From a virus, in IMG/VR virus record IMGVR_UViG_3300035070_000584, positions 1 through 22,291 of that record: a stretch of DNA of 22,291 bases; one strand, written 5' to 3'. The position numbers and the translations under genes were made by a program. The notes beneath the pieces are model-generated. The model searched no databases, was not told the origin of the DNA, and saw only the letters and a list, made by a program, of their open reading frames with translations. Below, piece after piece: positions 13,802 through 21,673 of the stretch (positions within the stretch are counted from its first letter, which is position 1; every line of letters starts with the position of its first letter).

Positions 13802-13868
13802 ATTTATCTCCTTAAATTAAAAGTTTATAAAAGTTATTAAAATTAGTGTCTCAATAAAGAAACACCTC

Positions 13869-13901: not shown

Positions 13902-15602
13902 TTAGTGGGTTTCTTTCCAAGTCGTGCCGATTGAATACTCACTATCTAGTGGACATCGTAGGTCAAATTGTTTCTCTACACGTTTCATTGCCTCCTTTGT
14001 AATGTTACCAAAATCTACAGCTTGTTCCTTACGGACTTCAAACTGCACCTCATCATGGACGTTAGCCACTGGCTTAGCATCCAAGTTCTGCTTGTCGACC
14101 TCATCAATTATATTGAGTAGCCATTGCTTACATATAATAGCACCCGCCCCTTGAATAAGTGTATTCAAACTAGAGTGAATGGATCGTGCAAGTAGAATCC
14201 TTTTATCAAGCGCAACCAATTGGTACTCACCATACTTGCGCTTACGTTGTTGTAATAAATTAACTAAGTTACTTGTTAAAGTTTTCATACCTTTAACTTT
14301 ATTTATAAATCTCTTACGACTACCTAATCCAGCAACCGTATCACCACCTACTATCTGACCTAGCTTTGCATCTCCAGCTCCATAGATAAATGCATAGACC
14401 CAAGTCTTTGCCGTTGGTCTATCTTTTAATCCGATAATCTTTTGATTGTATGTATGTATATCACCATCAACTACTTGCTCCGTGAACTTTGGGTTCTGTA
14501 AGTAATGCGCAAAGCATCGTAGTTCTAAACCACTAGCATCCGAACCGACTAAACAATACTTATTTGGATCTTGTATAGTCCATAATGAACGACACTCTTT
14601 ACCGTATGGTGAGTAACTTGCTGGAACTTGTGCCATATTAGGGCCATAGTGACTCATACGAGATGTCACACAACCCAGTGTTATGACTCTGCCGTGCACT
14701 CGGTTATCACCTTTAACATTCTTCAACCACGATTGTATTTGTGATACACGTTTCTCATACAATAGATACTCTGCAATCATCTTAGCCTCTGGATAATCTA
14801 ACTCCTTTAAAACTTTCTCATCTATAACTGGTAGTCCAGTTGGTGTGGTTTTACTTGGTACCCAATCATATTTCTTTTGTAATCGTTCTGCCACTTGCTT
14901 ACGAGAACTAGGGTTAAACTCATCGACGTGATCCTTGAGTGGTTTACCAGTGGTCTTATGAAATCGTGGTGTATATATTGTAGGGAATATAGTTTTCAAA
15001 TCTTTCTTTAAATCTTCTGACTTTGTTTTCAACTCTTCTAATAAATCATGTGCCTTATTTACATTTAAATAGAATCCATTCTTCTCTTGTTGATCTATAA
15101 TTCTTCTGACTCTATGTTCCATACGTACACTCTCTACACTAAACCGTGTTATCTTAGGTGCTAGGTGTGCCATAAGTTTACGTGTGACATGTACATCTTG
15201 TTGACAATACTTCAGCATCTCTTCTGAATATTCCTCGAAGTCTTTAAACTCTAGCTTACCACCTCGTGTTAGTTTCTTACCCCAAGATTTTAAACTATGA
15301 CCACCATCTATGTGTGCATTAATCATTTGAGATATAAGAAGTGTATCAATAATATTTTCCAAGGGAATTGTTATGCCTAATAATCTTTCTAGCACTGGGC
15401 CATCAAAGCTTACACCATTATGCATGATGTACTTACGATCTTGATTGTGAAACTCTTTGAACTCTTTACATCCTTGCTCTTGTATAAAGTCTCTCTGTTC
15501 TCCAGTTGCATAGTCTTGAATACATATACAATGTATCTTGGTAGCATCTAAACTATCCGTCTCTATATCTAGAACTACTGTGTCAAATTTTGAATCCATC
15601 AT
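13902..15602 (-). CDS. Family A DNA polymerase (T7 gp5-like) with 3'-5' exonuclease
   Basis: 566 aa. Exonuclease motifs: VLDIETD (Asp12, Glu14), HNGVSFDGP (Asp67), YCQQD (Tyr132, Asp136). Polymerase motifs: A, SDASGLELRCFAHYL (Asp355); B, DRPTAKTWVYAFIYGAG with Lys399 and Tyr403; C, NVHDEVQFEV (His516-Glu518). Tyr403 aligns with E. coli PolI position 762 and T7 Tyr526. T7 gp5 has 704 aa; the segment before FNPSSR that holds its thioredoxin-binding loop (about 76 aa) is only about 25-30 aa here, so thioredoxin dependence is doubtful (inference). AAGGAGGTGA (15612-15603) is an unusually complete ribosome site; the second ATG (15599) has the better spacing. The start overlaps the primase-helicase gene by 20 nt. 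Confidence 0.95.
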   Translation of the reverse strand: MMDSKFDTVVLDIETDSLDATKIHCICIQDYATGEQRDFIQEQGCKEFKEFHNQDRKYIMHNGVSFDGPVLERLLGITIPLENIIDTLLISQMINAHIDGGHSLKSWGKKLTRGGKLEFKDFEEYSEEMLKYCQQDVHVTRKLMAHLAPKITRFSVESVRMEHRVRRIIDQQEKNGFYLNVNKAHDLLEELKTKSEDLKKDLKTIFPTIYTPRFHKTTGKPLKDHVDEFNPSSRKQVAERLQKKYDWVPSKTTPTGLPVIDEKVLKELDYPEAKMIAEYLLYEKRVSQIQSWLKNVKGDNRVHGRVITLGCVTSRMSHYGPNMAQVPASYSPYGKECRSLWTIQDPNKYCLVGSDASGLELRCFAHYLQNPKFTEQVVDGDIHTYNQKIIGLKDRPTAKTWVYAFIYGAGDAKLGQIVGGDTVAGLGSRKRFINKVKGMKTLTSNLVNLLQQRKRKYGEYQLVALDKRILLARSIHSSLNTLIQGAGAIICKQWLLNIIDEVDKQNLDAKPVANVHDEVQFEVRKEQAVDFGNITKEAMKRVEKQFDLRCPLDSEYSIGTTWKETH

Positions 15603-17271
15603 TCACCTCCTTGAAGTCATCGTTGTCTTTGGATTTTGGGTTAGATATTTCAGTTAAGCGACCACTATCTTTATGCCATTGTAACCAACAACATGGGCCA
15701 GTCTCTCCACTAAATCTGTTCTTCAGTATACGAACTGTAGTTTGGTTTCTCTTCTCCATGTCTTCTGCTTGTCCGTTTCTTTCTAATGAGAAACAAAAGT
15801 CAGAAAGTTGTGCAATACCATGTGAACCTCTGAGTTGTGACAGACTAACTATCGCACCTTCTTCGTGTCCACTATCTGAACTAGCTCGTCTACTTAAATG
15901 AGATACCAACATCAGATGTATGTTCTGTTCTTGAACTAAAGTTCTAAGCCTTGTCATGATACTATCGATTGCTCTTCTCTCATTGTCACCAGTCATAGCC
16001 GATACAATCATAGTCAAGTGATCGAGTATAATAAACTTACAATCTAATCCACTAGCTAGGTATTGTACTTTAGATATGATGTTATCGATATCAGTAGAAC
16101 CAAAGTGATCCCACATTCTTACTTTGTTTGTACCAAGGGTAGCCTCCCATGCTGCACGTTTCTCTTCCATAGTTGATTCACAGAATGGTAGGTGCAGTGG
16201 TTTGTTGGCATGTACAGACATGATACCTTTGGTTGTTCGTTCAACAGATTCCTCTAAGAATAAACAACCAACTGAATGATTACTGTTCTTTATTATATGA
16301 TAAGCTAGTTCTCTCATTACACTAGACTTACCTATACCTGACCCCGCAGTGTACGTACATAACTCACCGAGTCTCATACCATAAGTCATAGTATTCATAC
16401 CCTCCCACGGATAAGGTATTGATTCAATTACCTTTTCATTAGCAATAAGATCCCATGTATTCTCACCAAGTATGATACCCTCTGGTGTATATGTTTGTGC
16501 AGCATAGTATCTATCTTTAAATTCTTTTTGTTTACCTTGCATAAGATAATCATTAGCATCTTTAAGATTAAGATTAACTATGTGTACTTTTTTTGGAGGG
16601 AATAGTTCGGCTACTCTTCTACTAGCCTCACGTCCTGGATCGTCATTATCAAAGCATAGGTATATCTTTTCAAAACTATTTAAAAATTCATACTGCTTTT
16701 TACAATCGGTGATAGCTCCAGCTGCACCAGTTCTAACACTAACAACTGGATAGGAGTTTGGTGCAAACATTTCGAACACAGATAAAGCATCTATCTCTCC
16801 CTCACATATTGTTATTGTTTTTAAATTGTTAGAACTAAATAGATGTTGACCAAACAATAAAGCTTTACCAGTCTTGCCCTCTACACTGAATGATTTATCG
16901 GCTACTCTTCTGACCTTAGTGGCGATATGATTACCCTCACTATCATAGTATGGGTAGTGGTGTTTATATACATTAGGTTTATCACTGTTAGTTGTAGTCA
17001 CTCCGAAGAACTCACAAGTCTTTTGGCTTATCTTTCTTTCGGTAATAGGTTGACTAATACCTAGTGGTATAACTTGTGGCGCCGAGCCTTGAATTTTTGT
17101 GTCATCTCCGAGCAGTTCCTCAAGGCGGGTCTTGTCCTTGGGAGGCTCAGTGTAGGTGCGGCACGAGAAGCAGAATCGTGAGCCGTCAGCATATAAAGCA
17201 TTGGCATCGGATGATCCACACTTATCACAAGTTGTGTGCCTTACGAATGGGTTAGGATTATTAGTTGTCAT
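15583..17271 (-). CDS. Primase-helicase (T7 gp4-like)
   Basis: 562 aa from the ATG at 17271, close to T7 gp4 (566). AAGGAG lies seven bases before it. A longer frame to 17358 runs through a promoter and is rejected. Zinc-binding domain: Cys15, Cys18, Cys34, Cys37. TOPRIM primase core: CEGEIDA (156-162) and FDNDDPG (207-213). RecA-type helicase: Walker A AGSGIGKSS (309-317), Walker B FIILDH (413-418), then SHLSRR and SQLRGSHGIAQLSD (478-491). Family knowledge: it unwinds DNA as a hexamer and makes primers for the polymerase. All three parts are intact. It leads the replication operon, and the repeat-rich region 17388-17554 lies directly upstream. Confidence 0.95.
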   Translation of the reverse strand: MTTNNPNPFVRHTTCDKCGSSDANALYADGSRFCFSCRTYTEPPKDKTRLEELLGDDTKIQGSAPQVIPLGISQPITERKISQKTCEFFGVTTTNSDKPNVYKHHYPYYDSEGNHIATKVRRVADKSFSVEGKTGKALLFGQHLFSSNNLKTITICEGEIDALSVFEMFAPNSYPVVSVRTGAAGAITDCKKQYEFLNSFEKIYLCFDNDDPGREASRRVAELFPPKKVHIVNLNLKDANDYLMQGKQKEFKDRYYAAQTYTPEGIILGENTWDLIANEKVIESIPYPWEGMNTMTYGMRLGELCTYTAGSGIGKSSVMRELAYHIIKNSNHSVGCLFLEESVERTTKGIMSVHANKPLHLPFCESTMEEKRAAWEATLGTNKVRMWDHFGSTDIDNIISKVQYLASGLDCKFIILDHLTMIVSAMTGDNERRAIDSIMTRLRTLVQEQNIHLMLVSHLSRRASSDSGHEEGAIVSLSQLRGSHGIAQLSDFCFSLERNGQAEDMEKRNQTTVRILKNRFSGETGPCCWLQWHKDSGRLTEISNPKSKDNDDFKEVNDGFKI

Positions 17272-17305
17272 ATGTCGTCTCCTTATTTTTGCGGGTCTTA
17301 CCCTA

Positions 17306-17334
17306 TAAATACATCCTCTAATTATTTTTGTCAA
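17306..17334 (-). promoter_or_regulatory. Sigma70-like promoter before primase-helicase
   Basis: On the - strand, TTGACA (17334-17329) is followed after 17 bases by TATTTA (17311-17306). The -35 is perfect; the -10 matches only three of six. The start codon lies 35 bases downstream and the repeat arrays lie just upstream. Confidence 0.5.
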
Positions 17335-17387
17335 GGGGTTGCCAGATTTCGAAATCAATGATAGCCTATCCCCATATACAGAGGGGG

Positions 17388-17399
17388 ACTATATATAGT
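17388..17399. repeat. 12-bp palindrome ACTATATATAGT, copy 1
   Basis: A perfect palindrome identical to 17543-17554. The two copies bracket the 11-bp and 10-bp arrays. A five-base CCCC/GGGG-type inverted repeat (17369-17388) lies beside it. Confidence 0.8.
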
Positions 17400-17439
17400 C
17401 TAGTATTAGTCTAGTGTTAGTCTAATGCTAGTTCTATAG
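17396..17439. repeat. Four tandem 11-bp repeats
   Basis: Units TAGTCTAGTAT, TAGTCTAGTGT, TAGTCTAATGC and TAGTTCTATAG follow each other without gaps. The word TTAGTCTAGTG at 17406-17416 recurs exactly, in reverse, at 21728-21738. Iteron-like; candidate binding sites upstream of the primase-helicase promoter. Confidence 0.75.
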
Positions 17440-17450
17440 GGATCTAATAA

Positions 17451-17550
17451 TAACTATAATTATCTCTTTATAACTATAGGTATCTATAGATAACTATAGG
17501 TATCTATATATAACTATAGGTAACTATAGATAACTATAGATAACTATATA
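17451..17550. repeat. Ten in-phase 10-bp repeats (iteron-like, possible origin or control region)
   Basis: Every ten bases from 17451 a unit close to TAACTATAGR begins: TAACTATAAT, TATCTCTTTA, TAACTATAGG, TATCTATAGA, TAACTATAGG, TATCTATATA, TAACTATAGG, TAACTATAGA, TAACTATAGA, TAACTATATA. The first six alternate TAAC/TATC, giving a 20-bp higher-order repeat. The period equals one helical turn. Nearly all A/T, with a CTATAG palindrome in many units. It lies between the HNH gene and the primase-helicase. A replication origin or multi-site operator is the natural reading; neither is proven. Confidence 0.85.
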
Positions 17551-17554
17551 TAGT
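17543..17554. repeat. 12-bp palindrome ACTATATATAGT, copy 2
   Basis: Identical to 17388-17399. It covers the stop codon of the HNH gene and overlaps the last 10-bp unit. Confidence 0.8.
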
Positions 17555-18038
17555 GGCCACACCCTTTGTTTCTACCTTTGAAGTTCTGTGTTCTCCCATG
17601 ACAATTACGGCAGAGCACCATCGAGTTTGACAGACGGTTGTGATAGCGATTCCCATCGATATGATGGAACTCCATCGGCGCCTCTTCTGCCCCTACTTTA
17701 CATTGGTGACAATACCATTGGTTAGTATCCTTGAGATAAGCAATGATCAGTCTCTTCTTACCAACAGACTTACCCATATGTTCATCTCGTTCTATTTTAG
17801 TATTGCGAATATATTTGCGATGCTTTTGTTGGCATACATTATCACAATACTTGTTCATTGTATTGTTCCGTTTTGGTTGTTCTTTGTTACAATAGTTGCA
17901 ACGGAAAACACCTGGATCTTTCTTGATCCGTTTAACATACAACTTATTGTTAACAGTTGTTGCACAACTTATCGAACAATACACATTCCGTGAGGATGTG
18001 ACCTCATTATCACACCCTACTCTTTTGCAGCTTGTCAT
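17544..18038 (-). CDS. HNH endonuclease with several zinc ribbons
   Basis: 164 aa, very Cys/Lys/Arg-rich. Zinc-knuckle pairs occur at Cys4/Cys9, Cys21/Cys25, Cys47/Cys50 and Cys65/Cys69. The HNH domain follows: Cys110/Cys113, MEFHHIDGN (His125, His126), the Asn-rich NRLSNSMVLCRNCHGRT with Cys143, Cys146 and His147. All catalytic and zinc residues appear intact. Family knowledge: phage HNH proteins are often free-standing homing nucleases, or cut DNA at packaging or replication sites. It lies directly against the repeat arrays, its stop codon being inside the palindrome. It overlaps the upstream gene by four bases (ATGA), so it belongs to the early operon. Confidence 0.87.
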   Translation of the reverse strand: MTSCKRVGCDNEVTSSRNVYCSISCATTVNNKLYVKRIKKDPGVFRCNYCNKEQPKRNNTMNKYCDNVCQQKHRKYIRNTKIERDEHMGKSVGKKRLIIAYLKDTNQWYCHQCKVGAEEAPMEFHHIDGNRYHNRLSNSMVLCRNCHGRTQNFKGRNKGCGHYI

Positions 18039-18274
18039 TTGAAGTTGACCCTCACTACATTATCTGGTGCCTCAGTGTCACATGGACGATCGTCAGTGGT
18101 TACTTCGTTTAGTATCCTATCTCTCACAGATTGTTTAGGTGGATTCAATATCTCATACATTGCATAGTCAATTAACTTACCAATCTCTTGATCAGATAGA
18201 TCATCTACATCTGTACCATCTCGCACTTGATCTATAACTTCTCTCATCATTTGTTTTAAAGTTTCTAGTTTCAT
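18035..18274 (-). CDS. Hypothetical small acidic protein
   Basis: 79 aa, no known family. It begins with an amphipathic helix (METLK-type, KQMMREVIDQVRDG) and an acidic stretch DVDDLSDQEIGKLIDYAMYEIL that may form a small helical bundle, and ends with a disordered-looking tail. AAGGAG lies before the ATG. Start and stop overlap its neighbours, so it is a regular member of the early operon. Confidence 0.72.
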   Translation of the reverse strand: MKLETLKQMMREVIDQVRDGTDVDDLSDQEIGKLIDYAMYEILNPPKQSVRDRILNEVTTDDRPCDTEAPDNVVRVNFK

Positions 18275-18480
18275 TATTGTTTCTCCTTGTCAGTTCGTGG
18301 GTTAAATATGTCCTCAAAGATAGCTTCAACAACATCAACATATTCTTCTTGAGAATATCTTTTAATTGATACTGTTTGTACTATATCTTTGAAGTGTTTT
18401 ATCTTAGCTAATGCATAGACTATTTCTACATCAGAAAGAATCTCGTCATCGTTTATATCTGATCCGTTACTTTTTACCAT
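18274..18480 (-). CDS. Hypothetical small protein
   Basis: 68 aa from the ATG at 18480, chosen because GGGAG lies ten bases upstream and it leaves only a 14-nt overlap with the previous gene; a longer frame to 18522 would overlap by 56. No family recognised. Mostly helical and acidic (DDEILSDVEIVYALAKIKHFKDIV; YVDVVEAIFEDIF). The DVVEAIFEDIFNP ending loosely resembles the AMYEILNP of the next gene, so the two may be distant relatives. Confidence 0.68.
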   Translation of the reverse strand: MVKSNGSDINDDEILSDVEIVYALAKIKHFKDIVQTVSIKRYSQEEYVDVVEAIFEDIFNPRTDKEKQ

Positions 18481-18676
18481 GGAAATACTCCCTCTTATCT
18501 TTGTATTGTTTATATGTATCACATTTTACTGCGACAACTTTGCCGTTAGACTTTTCGTACTGCTCATAGATTTGAGAGACGATAGGCTCACACTCATTGT
18601 ATACTTTTGGTATAGTCTTCTCGTATAACCGAGAGTTAATCTCAATCCAAAAGGTTATGATCACTGGTTCAATCAT
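18467..18676 (-). CDS. Hypothetical small protein
   Basis: 69 aa. It begins IEPVIITFWIEINSRLYEKTIP, likely a beta hairpin, followed by a helix (ECEPIVSQIYEQYEK) and a short strand (GKVVAVKCDTY). The same EPIV-[SE]-Q word and order occur in the gene upstream (18669-18890), suggesting a duplicated small fold. AAGGA precedes the ATG. It overlaps both neighbours. Confidence 0.7.
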   Translation of the reverse strand: MIEPVIITFWIEINSRLYEKTIPKVYNECEPIVSQIYEQYEKSNGKVVAVKCDTYKQYKDKREYFHGKK

Positions 18677-18890
18677 GATTATTCCTTTGTCTTATAAGAT
18701 GAAACTTCCAACCAATACACATATGCCCAGAGTTTATTCCATCTCGATTAATATTCAATCGTTTAAACTCTTGTTCAACGATCGGTTCTAGATTGTCACA
18801 GTTCTTTCGTTCCATAACAAACCTCTCCTCCACACCAGTTGGTGTAGAGAAAATTAGGTATAGGGCAAACAGTTCTTTAGTCATCATCAC
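18669..18890 (-). CDS. Hypothetical small protein
   Basis: 73 aa. ELFALYLIFSTPTGVEERFV at the start reads as a strand-turn-strand rather than a membrane span. It is followed by CDNLEPIVEQEFKRLNINRDG, parallel to the EPIVSQIYEQYEK helix of the next gene. No family recognised. Three successive Met codons open the frame, so the exact start is uncertain; the ribosome site is weak, and the gene overlaps the end of the one before it. Confidence 0.66.
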   Translation of the reverse strand: MMMTKELFALYLIFSTPTGVEERFVMERKNCDNLEPIVEQEFKRLNINRDGINSGHMCIGWKFHLIRQRNNHD

Positions 18891-19149
18891 TCGCTTTCTT
18901 TCTTGCCTCCAATACTTTCTGATGTGCAGTTAATATTAAATGTGTAGCACTTGAATCCTCTGGCGCATGAAAGTAACATGCATCCATGAGGGTTGTCATA
19001 GCACCAACAAACAGATTCTGTCTGTTAACAATCTCAGCTTCTAGATTAGTGATTAACTTTACTGTCTCGTCTTGAGCATACTCTCGCTCTCGTAAATCAT
19101 CATCATCGTTATCATCTGAGTAGTCAAAGCCGTCAACATCTTTTAACAT
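18877..19149 (-). CDS. Hypothetical acidic helical protein
   Basis: 90 aa from the ATG at 19149, which has AAGGAG five bases upstream; a longer frame to 19251 would run into the next gene without a better site. The first 25 residues are very acidic (DYSDDNDDDDLRERE). The rest is helical with two conserved-looking blocks (LITNLEAEIVNRQNLFVGAMTTLM; THLILTAHQKVLEARKKA). No known family. A DNA-mimic or protein-binding role is conceivable from the acidity, but nothing more specific can be said. Confidence 0.7.
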   Translation of the reverse strand: MLKDVDGFDYSDDNDDDDLREREYAQDETVKLITNLEAEIVNRQNLFVGAMTTLMDACYFHAPEDSSATHLILTAHQKVLEARKKASDDD

Positions 19150-19159
19150 TATGTCTCCT

Positions 19160-19345
19160 TTAAAATAATGGTTCGTATTCTCTACCTTGCAGTAGCATTT
19201 CTTCGTAGTAGTCGGCTTGTGTCTCATACCACATAGCCTTGTTGTCCTCACCTTTCACTCTAGACATTCGTGCTTGGTGACGACAGTCATTCATTGCTTG
19301 TTCGCAATGTATGAATCGTGGGTCAACACCAATAGACTTGCTCAT
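19160..19345 (-). CDS. Hypothetical small protein
   Basis: 61 aa, charged, with a helix around CEQAMNDCRHQARMSRVKG and a Tyr/Glu-rich end (WYETQADYYEEMLLQGREYEPLF). No family recognised. AAGGAGG lies six bases before the ATG, inside the end of the methyltransferase gene (23-nt overlap). Confidence 0.7.
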   Translation of the reverse strand: MSKSIGVDPRFIHCEQAMNDCRHQARMSRVKGEDNKAMWYETQADYYEEMLLQGREYEPLF

Positions 19346-21411: not shown

Positions 21412-21624
21412 TTACGTCCCCCAATGTCCATGTTTCATGGCTTGATAGTCTAGATATTCTCTAACCATCTCTTCAACTTCCTCCTCAGTAACGAGGGATA
21501 GTCTTCTGTCTTTAAGAACATTATGCATGATCTCACTTAGACATTCACCATCAGTCTTAGGAATGGCTTTACCTATCTCGTTCAGTTCTTGTTCTCTGAA
21601 CATATCTTTTTGTGCTTGTGACAT
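21412..21624 (-). CDS. Hypothetical small acidic protein
   Basis: 70 aa from the ATG at 21624, which has AAGGAG eight bases upstream; a longer frame to 21669 would start within the regulatory dyad region. Mostly helical and acidic (FREQELNEIGKAIPK; LVTEEEVEEMVREYLDYQAMK). No family recognised. First gene of a unit served by the promoter at 21741-21768. Confidence 0.7.
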   Translation of the reverse strand: MSQAQKDMFREQELNEIGKAIPKTDGECLSEIMHNVLKDRRLSLVTEEEVEEMVREYLDYQAMKHGHWGT

Positions 21625-21673
21625 ATTGTCGTCTCCTTTTCGGTGTGGGTTATACCACCTAACTATCACCGAG

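Follow-up and report, generated by a model that had tools for sequence, protein, structure and literature searches.

A repeat array matched to the N-terminal tail of a T7-type primase-helicase in marine phages, and its possible role as a replication origin

Replication of phage T7 starts at RNA polymerase promoters and their transcripts. In phage P4, primase, helicase and origin binding are united in one protein, alpha, which recognises repeated origin sequences. The zinc domain of the T7 primase confers sequence recognition (PMC5517523, PMC9198812), priming-site choice depends on the 10 nt that lie 3' of the site, which this domain may read (PMC12839067), and ring loading is assisted by the primase domain (PMC9198812, PMC3401641). 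For the RepA/iteron modules of the PLE satellites, cognate pairing was shown by swap experiments, and the diversification was attributed to a nuclease directed at the origin (PMC8263062). Initiator-matched repeat arrays are already known; as far as we found, a primase-helicase as the matched partner was not. In the literature searched, we found no report on how start sites are chosen in phages with a T7-type replisome and no RNA polymerase. The locus described here offers an allele-resolved, testable answer, with seven array types and seven matching tails.

The window, that is the whole stretch of 22,291 nucleotides analysed (IMG/VR record IMGVR_UViG_3300035070_000584, positions 1 to 22,291), is a virus contig of a marine-type phage. 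Its minus strand carries replication genes for a primase-helicase, a T7-type polymerase, a Gp2.5-like SSB, a Cas4-like exonuclease, an endonuclease and a ribonucleotide reductase. Read along this strand, the order at the locus is HNH gene, array, 11-bp repeats, palindrome, hairpin, putative promoter, ribosome-binding site and primase-helicase:

17544..18038, minus strand: HNH endonuclease gene, ending within the first array unit
about 17433..17555, minus strand: class-variable repeat array of alternating 10-bp units, (A/T)TA-N4-(T/G)AG in minus-strand sense
17514..17520, minus strand: class-core site CCTATAG, intact copy
17494..17500, minus strand: class-core site CCTATAG, intact copy
17474..17480, minus strand: class-core site CCTATAG, intact copy
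17434..17440, minus strand: class-core site CCTATAG, final copy ahead of the invariant block
17397..17432, minus strand: class-invariant 11-bp repeats of the TAGACTA type (17396-17432 by TRF; 2-3 copies in relatives)
17387..17400, no strand: invariant palindrome GACTATATATAGTC closing the array
17370..17387, minus strand: CCCC...GGGG hairpin in the interval between array and promoter
17306..17334, minus strand: putative sigma-70 promoter of the primase-helicase (TTGACA 17334-17329, 17 bp, TATTTA 17311-17306)
17274..17283, minus strand: ribosome-binding box AGGAGACGAC
15583..17271, minus strand: T7-gp4-type primase-helicase, 562 aa (phrog_239, E 4e-182; T7 gp4 6n7i, E 8e-90)
17242..17268, minus strand: hypervariable tail of the primase-helicase, TTNNPNPFV (codons 2-10), which matches the array core
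17161..17229, minus strand: primase zinc-binding domain (Cys15/Cys18/Cys34/Cys37), aligning with the T7 gp4 zinc domain

An earlier sequence-only reading had described ten consecutive decamers at 17451-17550, with a 20-bp alternation, upstream of the primase-helicase, and was right on these points; the gene lies on the minus strand and starts at 17271. Units 1-5 are TAACTATAAT TATCTCTTTA TAACTATAGG TATCTATAGA TAACTATAGG and units 6-10 are TATCTATATA TAACTATAGG TAACTATAGA TAACTATAGA TAACTATATA, the second of the ten being degenerate. The repetition is far beyond chance. Lag-10 identity was 68/90, against 30 +/- 6 (maximum 56) in 20,000 Markov shuffles, and lag-20 identity 70/80, against 27 +/- 5 (maximum 47). 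Outside the array, the best lag-10 score in the whole window was 37/90. TRF placed the array at 17434-17552 with period 20 and at 17470-17552 with period 10. The full array is slightly longer than the ten decamers, and at its far end takes in the stop codon of the HNH gene, which belongs to the first array unit (CAC TAT ATA TAG). Its A+T content is 76%, compared with 63% for the window. Tandem direct repeats and A+T-rich DNA lie beside a replication protein gene, as in iteron origins. On the window's own strand, the DNA of the whole array folds well (z -4.1), which the palindromic CTATAG of the window's own type may account for.

Downstream, the putative primase promoter has a weak -10: a consensus scan did not pick up TATTTA, and relatives carry TATTAA or TATAGT. 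The box AGGAGACGAC occurs again at ~21630 on the minus strand, upstream of a small ORF (21412-21669), and also in relatives, possibly as a shared early-gene start module. Upstream of the HNH gene, at 18035-19251, the window has small early genes of unknown function, with 35-95% identity among relatives and unrelated to array type. A 10-bp repeat, ATTAAAAGTT, is present in 2.7 copies at 13816-13842, where an A+T-rich spacer separates the SSB gene from the DNA polymerase gene.

The primase-helicase is a DnaG-type primase with a Cys4 zinc domain, fused to a DnaB-fold helicase, and matches 6n7i over its residues 6-543. It is the one DnaB-fold helicase of each genome. The four cysteines of the zinc domain are invariant, as is a Phe that ends the hypervariable tail directly ahead of this domain. 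The AlphaFold2 model was poor (pLDDT 61; tail <50 and disordered), and structure therefore gives no argument for contact between tail and array.

Searching with the primase-helicase, we obtained 55 IMG/VR loci, the majority at 84-100% protein identity. Thirty-four sequences, including the window, spanned the site and represented 29 distinct haplotypes. Conservation in relatives had been proposed as a check of the array, and it was kept in all 29 haplotypes, upstream of the primase-helicase, between this gene and the HNH gene, with identical borders. Aligned arrays, 114-155 bp long, consist of (A/T)TA-N4-(T/G)AG units in which ATA and TTA alternate. This odd/even structure is the 20-bp alternation seen in the window: every second unit bears a 4-bp core that is uniform per genome and different among genomes. 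In the window, the odd units carry CCTA. We assigned core types from the arrays alone, ahead of any look at the tails, as follows:

core CCTA: window, L004, L009 and L038; tail TNNPNPF
core TATA: 13 haplotypes; tail (I/V)N(N/Y)DPKRF
core ATCA: 2 haplotypes; tail (E/Q)NDPKRF
core ATCT: 4 haplotypes; tail QFDDKRF
core TCTT: 2 haplotypes; tail EQFGTYDNRKF
core CTAA: 2 haplotypes; tail VNQNPF
core TTAC: 2 haplotypes; tail QTDPKGF

A count of core+TAG copies showed the cores to be nearly exclusive to arrays of their own type, except for TATATAG, which doubles as the even unit in some types. Outside the array, the cores were not enriched (15 contigs), which led us to reject a genome-wide regulon. 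The final core copy, beside the 11-bp block, varies mainly in the core (ACATATATAGAAC, ACAATCTTAGAAC, ACAATCATAGAAC) while its flanks are constant, which is not what unit-wide slippage would do.

The core type matched codons 2-10 of the primase-helicase in 28 of the 29 haplotypes. The single mismatch, L027, combines an ATCT array with a TATA-type tail (around L027 1-380) and may be a natural recombinant, a chimeric contig or assembly, or a tolerated mismatch. Assembly chimeras would be expected to blur the match between core and tail, not to create one.

We scanned the locus, in a Mantel-type analysis, for correlation between a difference in array type and local sequence distance. The peak was at primase codons 1-10 (r 0.58-0.68), where none of 400 permutations was as high; the permutations were not tree-aware, though the haplotypes are related. 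Across the following 20 codons r fell, to mostly 0.0-0.3. Over the HNH gene, right up to the bases that adjoin the array, r ranged from -0.16 to 0.24 and was mostly about 0, and for palindrome, hairpin, promoter and ribosome-binding site it was -0.11 to 0.11; variable sites are scarce in the intergenic region, and HNH homing could increase recombination on the HNH side. In an unbiased scan of 10-aa windows over all 26 gene families shared among 15 longer contigs, the primase tail ranked first, its identity being 0.96 within core types and 0.44 between them.

On a tree of the primase body, core types are scattered (11 changes, compared with a minimum of 6). The CCTA genome L004 is the sister of the TATA genome L005, L009 (CCTA) lies among TATA genomes, and in both cases the tail switches with the type. 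Among independent pairs this happened in 4/4 for CCTA, 4.8/5 for TATA and 2/2 for ATCA, numbers too few for single-trait sign tests to reach 0.05. Two controls on the same tree, the -10 variant and the HNH type, had no association with core type. Within types, the tail had a pN/pS of 0.09, with varying silent sites; between types, pN was 0.22 and pS 0.53. The 44 codons after the tail did not differ by core type. Relative to core type, the HNH gene, the promoter and the remainder of the primase are shuffled. The HNH N-terminal halves of relatives fall into at least three highly divergent versions, shuffled across genomes.

Base pairing of array RNA or DNA with the start codons of the primase was considered and rejected: complementarity of tail DNA to arrays of the own type was 5.55 nt, compared with 5.41 nt to other types, showing no excess. 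Given the scan peak, the recurrent switches, the pN/pS of the tail and this lack of base pairing, we treat the match as selected co-variation at the protein level, within the limits set by sample size, relatedness and metagenome assembly. The spelling of the array and the N-terminal residues of the enzyme change in step, which suggests that the enzyme reads the array.

The sequence-only reading had named the HNH and a 136-aa protein as candidate binders. Neither was supported. HNH sequence bears no relation to core type, even in the part next to the array, and the scan for type-linked segments did not single out the 136-aa protein. Judged by the sequence comparison, the best-supported partner is the primase-helicase. 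The same reading had considered an origin or a cooperative control region, with one repeat per helical turn placing every site on the same face of the DNA. Conserved position and allele matching to the primase-helicase agree with the suggestion of an origin or control region, the array being a candidate origin. GC skew, suggested as a check, has no switch at the array; it follows gene orientation only and is uninformative as an origin marker. As for phasing, the periodicity is real, but placement on the same face is doubtful and does not seem to be conserved. Core-to-core steps are 20 bp (59 cases) or 19 bp (17 cases), and 38-42 bp where one site is degenerate; steps of 19-20 bp fall short of two turns at 10.5 bp/turn, the flanking invariant repeats measure 11 bp, and cousins have 12-bp repeats. 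The repeat period might instead reflect an enzyme that recognises DNA in units of 10 nt.

Arrays at the same place were found in the more distant relatives L119/L198 (59% identity to the window's primase), L201 (71% to L119) and L120/L277-L283 (57%). As in the window, they precede a hairpin, here of a CCCCTC type and at the position equivalent to that of the CCCC...GGGG hairpin, and a TTGACA-like promoter. Their repeats are unrelated to the window's: 12-bp TAGTAGTAGTAA, 12-bp ATATAGGTAGTA with ACATACATTAAT, and about 10-bp CTATGTATAC. The tails of L119/L198, L201 and L120/L277-L283 are MTQTTTNKSKF, MNTNKPKARF and MEHQTDSKF, respectively, and cousins with nearly identical primases have identical arrays and identical tails. 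None of about 70 T7-type primase loci at 44-50% identity carries a comparable array immediately upstream; in the scan, only the relatives at 57-59% had one at this position, and the arrangement therefore seems restricted to the window's clade. The nearest cultured primases (~45%) are those of the Pelagibacter phages HTVC115P and HTVC103P, which share the T7-type SSB, primase and polymerase module but lack a comparable array in the stretch immediately before the primase. A weak 10-bp periodicity, CTAAAGTATCC, was seen in the distant relatives L161 and L163, ~480 bp upstream of the primase and upstream of an SSB-like gene. The contigs L086-L116 carry a capsid gene 53% identical to that of HTVC023P-type pelagiphages. 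The cultured HTVC023P-type genomes lack a window-type primase-helicase, which makes it probable that the replication module was exchanged between phage groups.

No PF00940 RNA polymerase was detected in contigs of 58,972, 58,901 and 59,090 bp, which may lack ends; the same search found the enzyme in Pelagibacter phage HTVC031P, used as positive control. If these contigs are close to complete, the phages appear unable to initiate in the T7 manner. On balance, we lean towards reading the array as recognition sites for the phage's own primase-helicase, most likely a replication origin or helicase-loading site. It would then replace the origin that T7 makes with RNA polymerase. The enzyme's short N-terminal tail would recognise the variable 4-bp core of the odd units, and the conserved zinc-binding domain next to it the constant TAG, or CTA in the complementary strand, comparable to the recognition of the priming trinucleotide by the zinc domain of the T7 primase. 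The repeated sites may be occupied by several subunits of a single hexamer, which would melt the 76% A+T stretch, load the ring and synthesise the first primers. We infer physical binding, the strand and subunit arrangement, and the origin function from the pattern described above; a constant TAG/CTA next to a variable 4-mer, and a tail beside a zinc domain, would fit tandem high-affinity sites for the enzyme. As core and tail must match, they would be inherited as allele pairs. More tentatively, a T7-type primase-helicase could here be its own origin-recognition protein, with a short hypervariable tail that reads the matching array. As the locus suggests, this would sort marine phages, which recombine freely in other respects, into replication types akin to incompatibility groups, with selection maintaining their diversity. 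Such selection might come, for example, from co-infecting rivals, satellites or origin-cutting nucleases.

The main functional rival is autoregulation, in which tail and zinc domain of the primase-helicase would bind the array as the operator of the enzyme's own promoter, ~60-100 bp downstream. Array and putative primase promoter are always neighbours, the array on the upstream side, even in the cousins at 57-71% identity, and the matched partner of the array is the gene driven by that promoter. Against this, an A+T-rich array of 114-155 bp, well upstream of the -35 and with a hairpin between them, would be an unusual operator, and we know of no case of a T7-type primase acting as transcription regulator; we consider autoregulation unlikely. 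Binding of the array by another phage protein, the association with the tail being historical linkage of old haplotypes that persist despite the recurrent markers between them, seems to us likewise unlikely. Tail and array are only ~130-250 bp apart and the tail alleles are old (between-type pS 0.53), as long-kept haplotypes predict. Yet the HNH gene, closer to the array, and the hairpin, promoter and spacer all lack the association, no other gene window in the 26 families tracks core type as well, and the tail alleles are conserved as protein.

A neutral satellite, homogenised per genome by slippage and gene conversion and bound by nothing, was already disfavoured by the data above and is improbable. 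The length of the array does vary among genomes, and concerted evolution is frequent in tandem repeats. What changes, however, is mainly the 4-bp core of alternate units, while unit flanks, the flanks of the final copy, the 11-bp block and both borders are fixed; slippage would not pick a matching primase tail, and the position of the array is kept in cousins with unrelated repeats. Still less probable is a role of the array as target for the nearby HNH endonuclease, or for the nuclease of a rival or satellite, with core types as resistance alleles. The HNH gene ends in the array, and origin-directed nucleases drive replicon switching in ICP1/PLE (PMC8263062), but the HNH sequence does not track core type and the primase tail would be left unexplained; nuclease targeting might be the selection behind the diversity instead of the function of the array. 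We give hardly any credence to tandem promoters for a T7-type single-subunit RNA polymerase, suggested by the resemblance of ACTATAG to the 3' half of T7-like promoters. The CTATAG(G) likeness is superficial and limited to the window's own type, the ATCATAG, CTAATAG and TCTTTAG types are unlike such promoters, copies are not enriched elsewhere in the 15 contigs, and no RNA polymerase gene was found in the three ~59 kb contigs with a search whose positive control worked.

Among known systems, the nearest precedent for the observed pattern are the PLE RepA/iteron modules of Vibrio cholerae satellites, in which repeats co-vary with the DNA-binding part of the initiator. The likeness includes repeated specificity swaps against a shared protein body. 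In the window's clade, too, repeats co-vary with one protein segment against a shuffled background, with the primase-helicase as the inferred initiator. The parts differ: PLEs combine a RepA_N initiator with three ~30-bp iterons, whereas the co-varying protein here is a T7-gp4-type primase-helicase with a variable tail of ~9 residues and not a RepA_N-type initiator, and the clade has seven array types of 10/20-bp units, unlike the PLE iterons. By analogy with PLE, nuclease pressure could also act on the window's locus.

T7 gene 4 encodes an enzyme of the same family with the same zinc-domain layout, in which the zinc domain sets priming-site specificity and no separate loader is needed. T7 starts from RNA polymerase promoters, whereas no phage RNA polymerase gene was found in the window's phage group. 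To our knowledge, T7 gp4 has no cognate repeat array and is not itself a binder of duplex origins. P4 alpha differs in domain arrangement and binds via its C-terminal domain, and we know of no allele-matched tail in this protein. Array types differing by ~4 bp and tails differing by ~9 residues would form a very small specificity module, useful for studying switches in protein-DNA recognition. The origins of iteron plasmids and their Rep proteins likewise have direct repeats near an A+T-rich stretch, beside a replication gene, and type-specific matching; there the initiator is of the Rep type, whereas in the window the candidate reader is the replicative enzyme itself.
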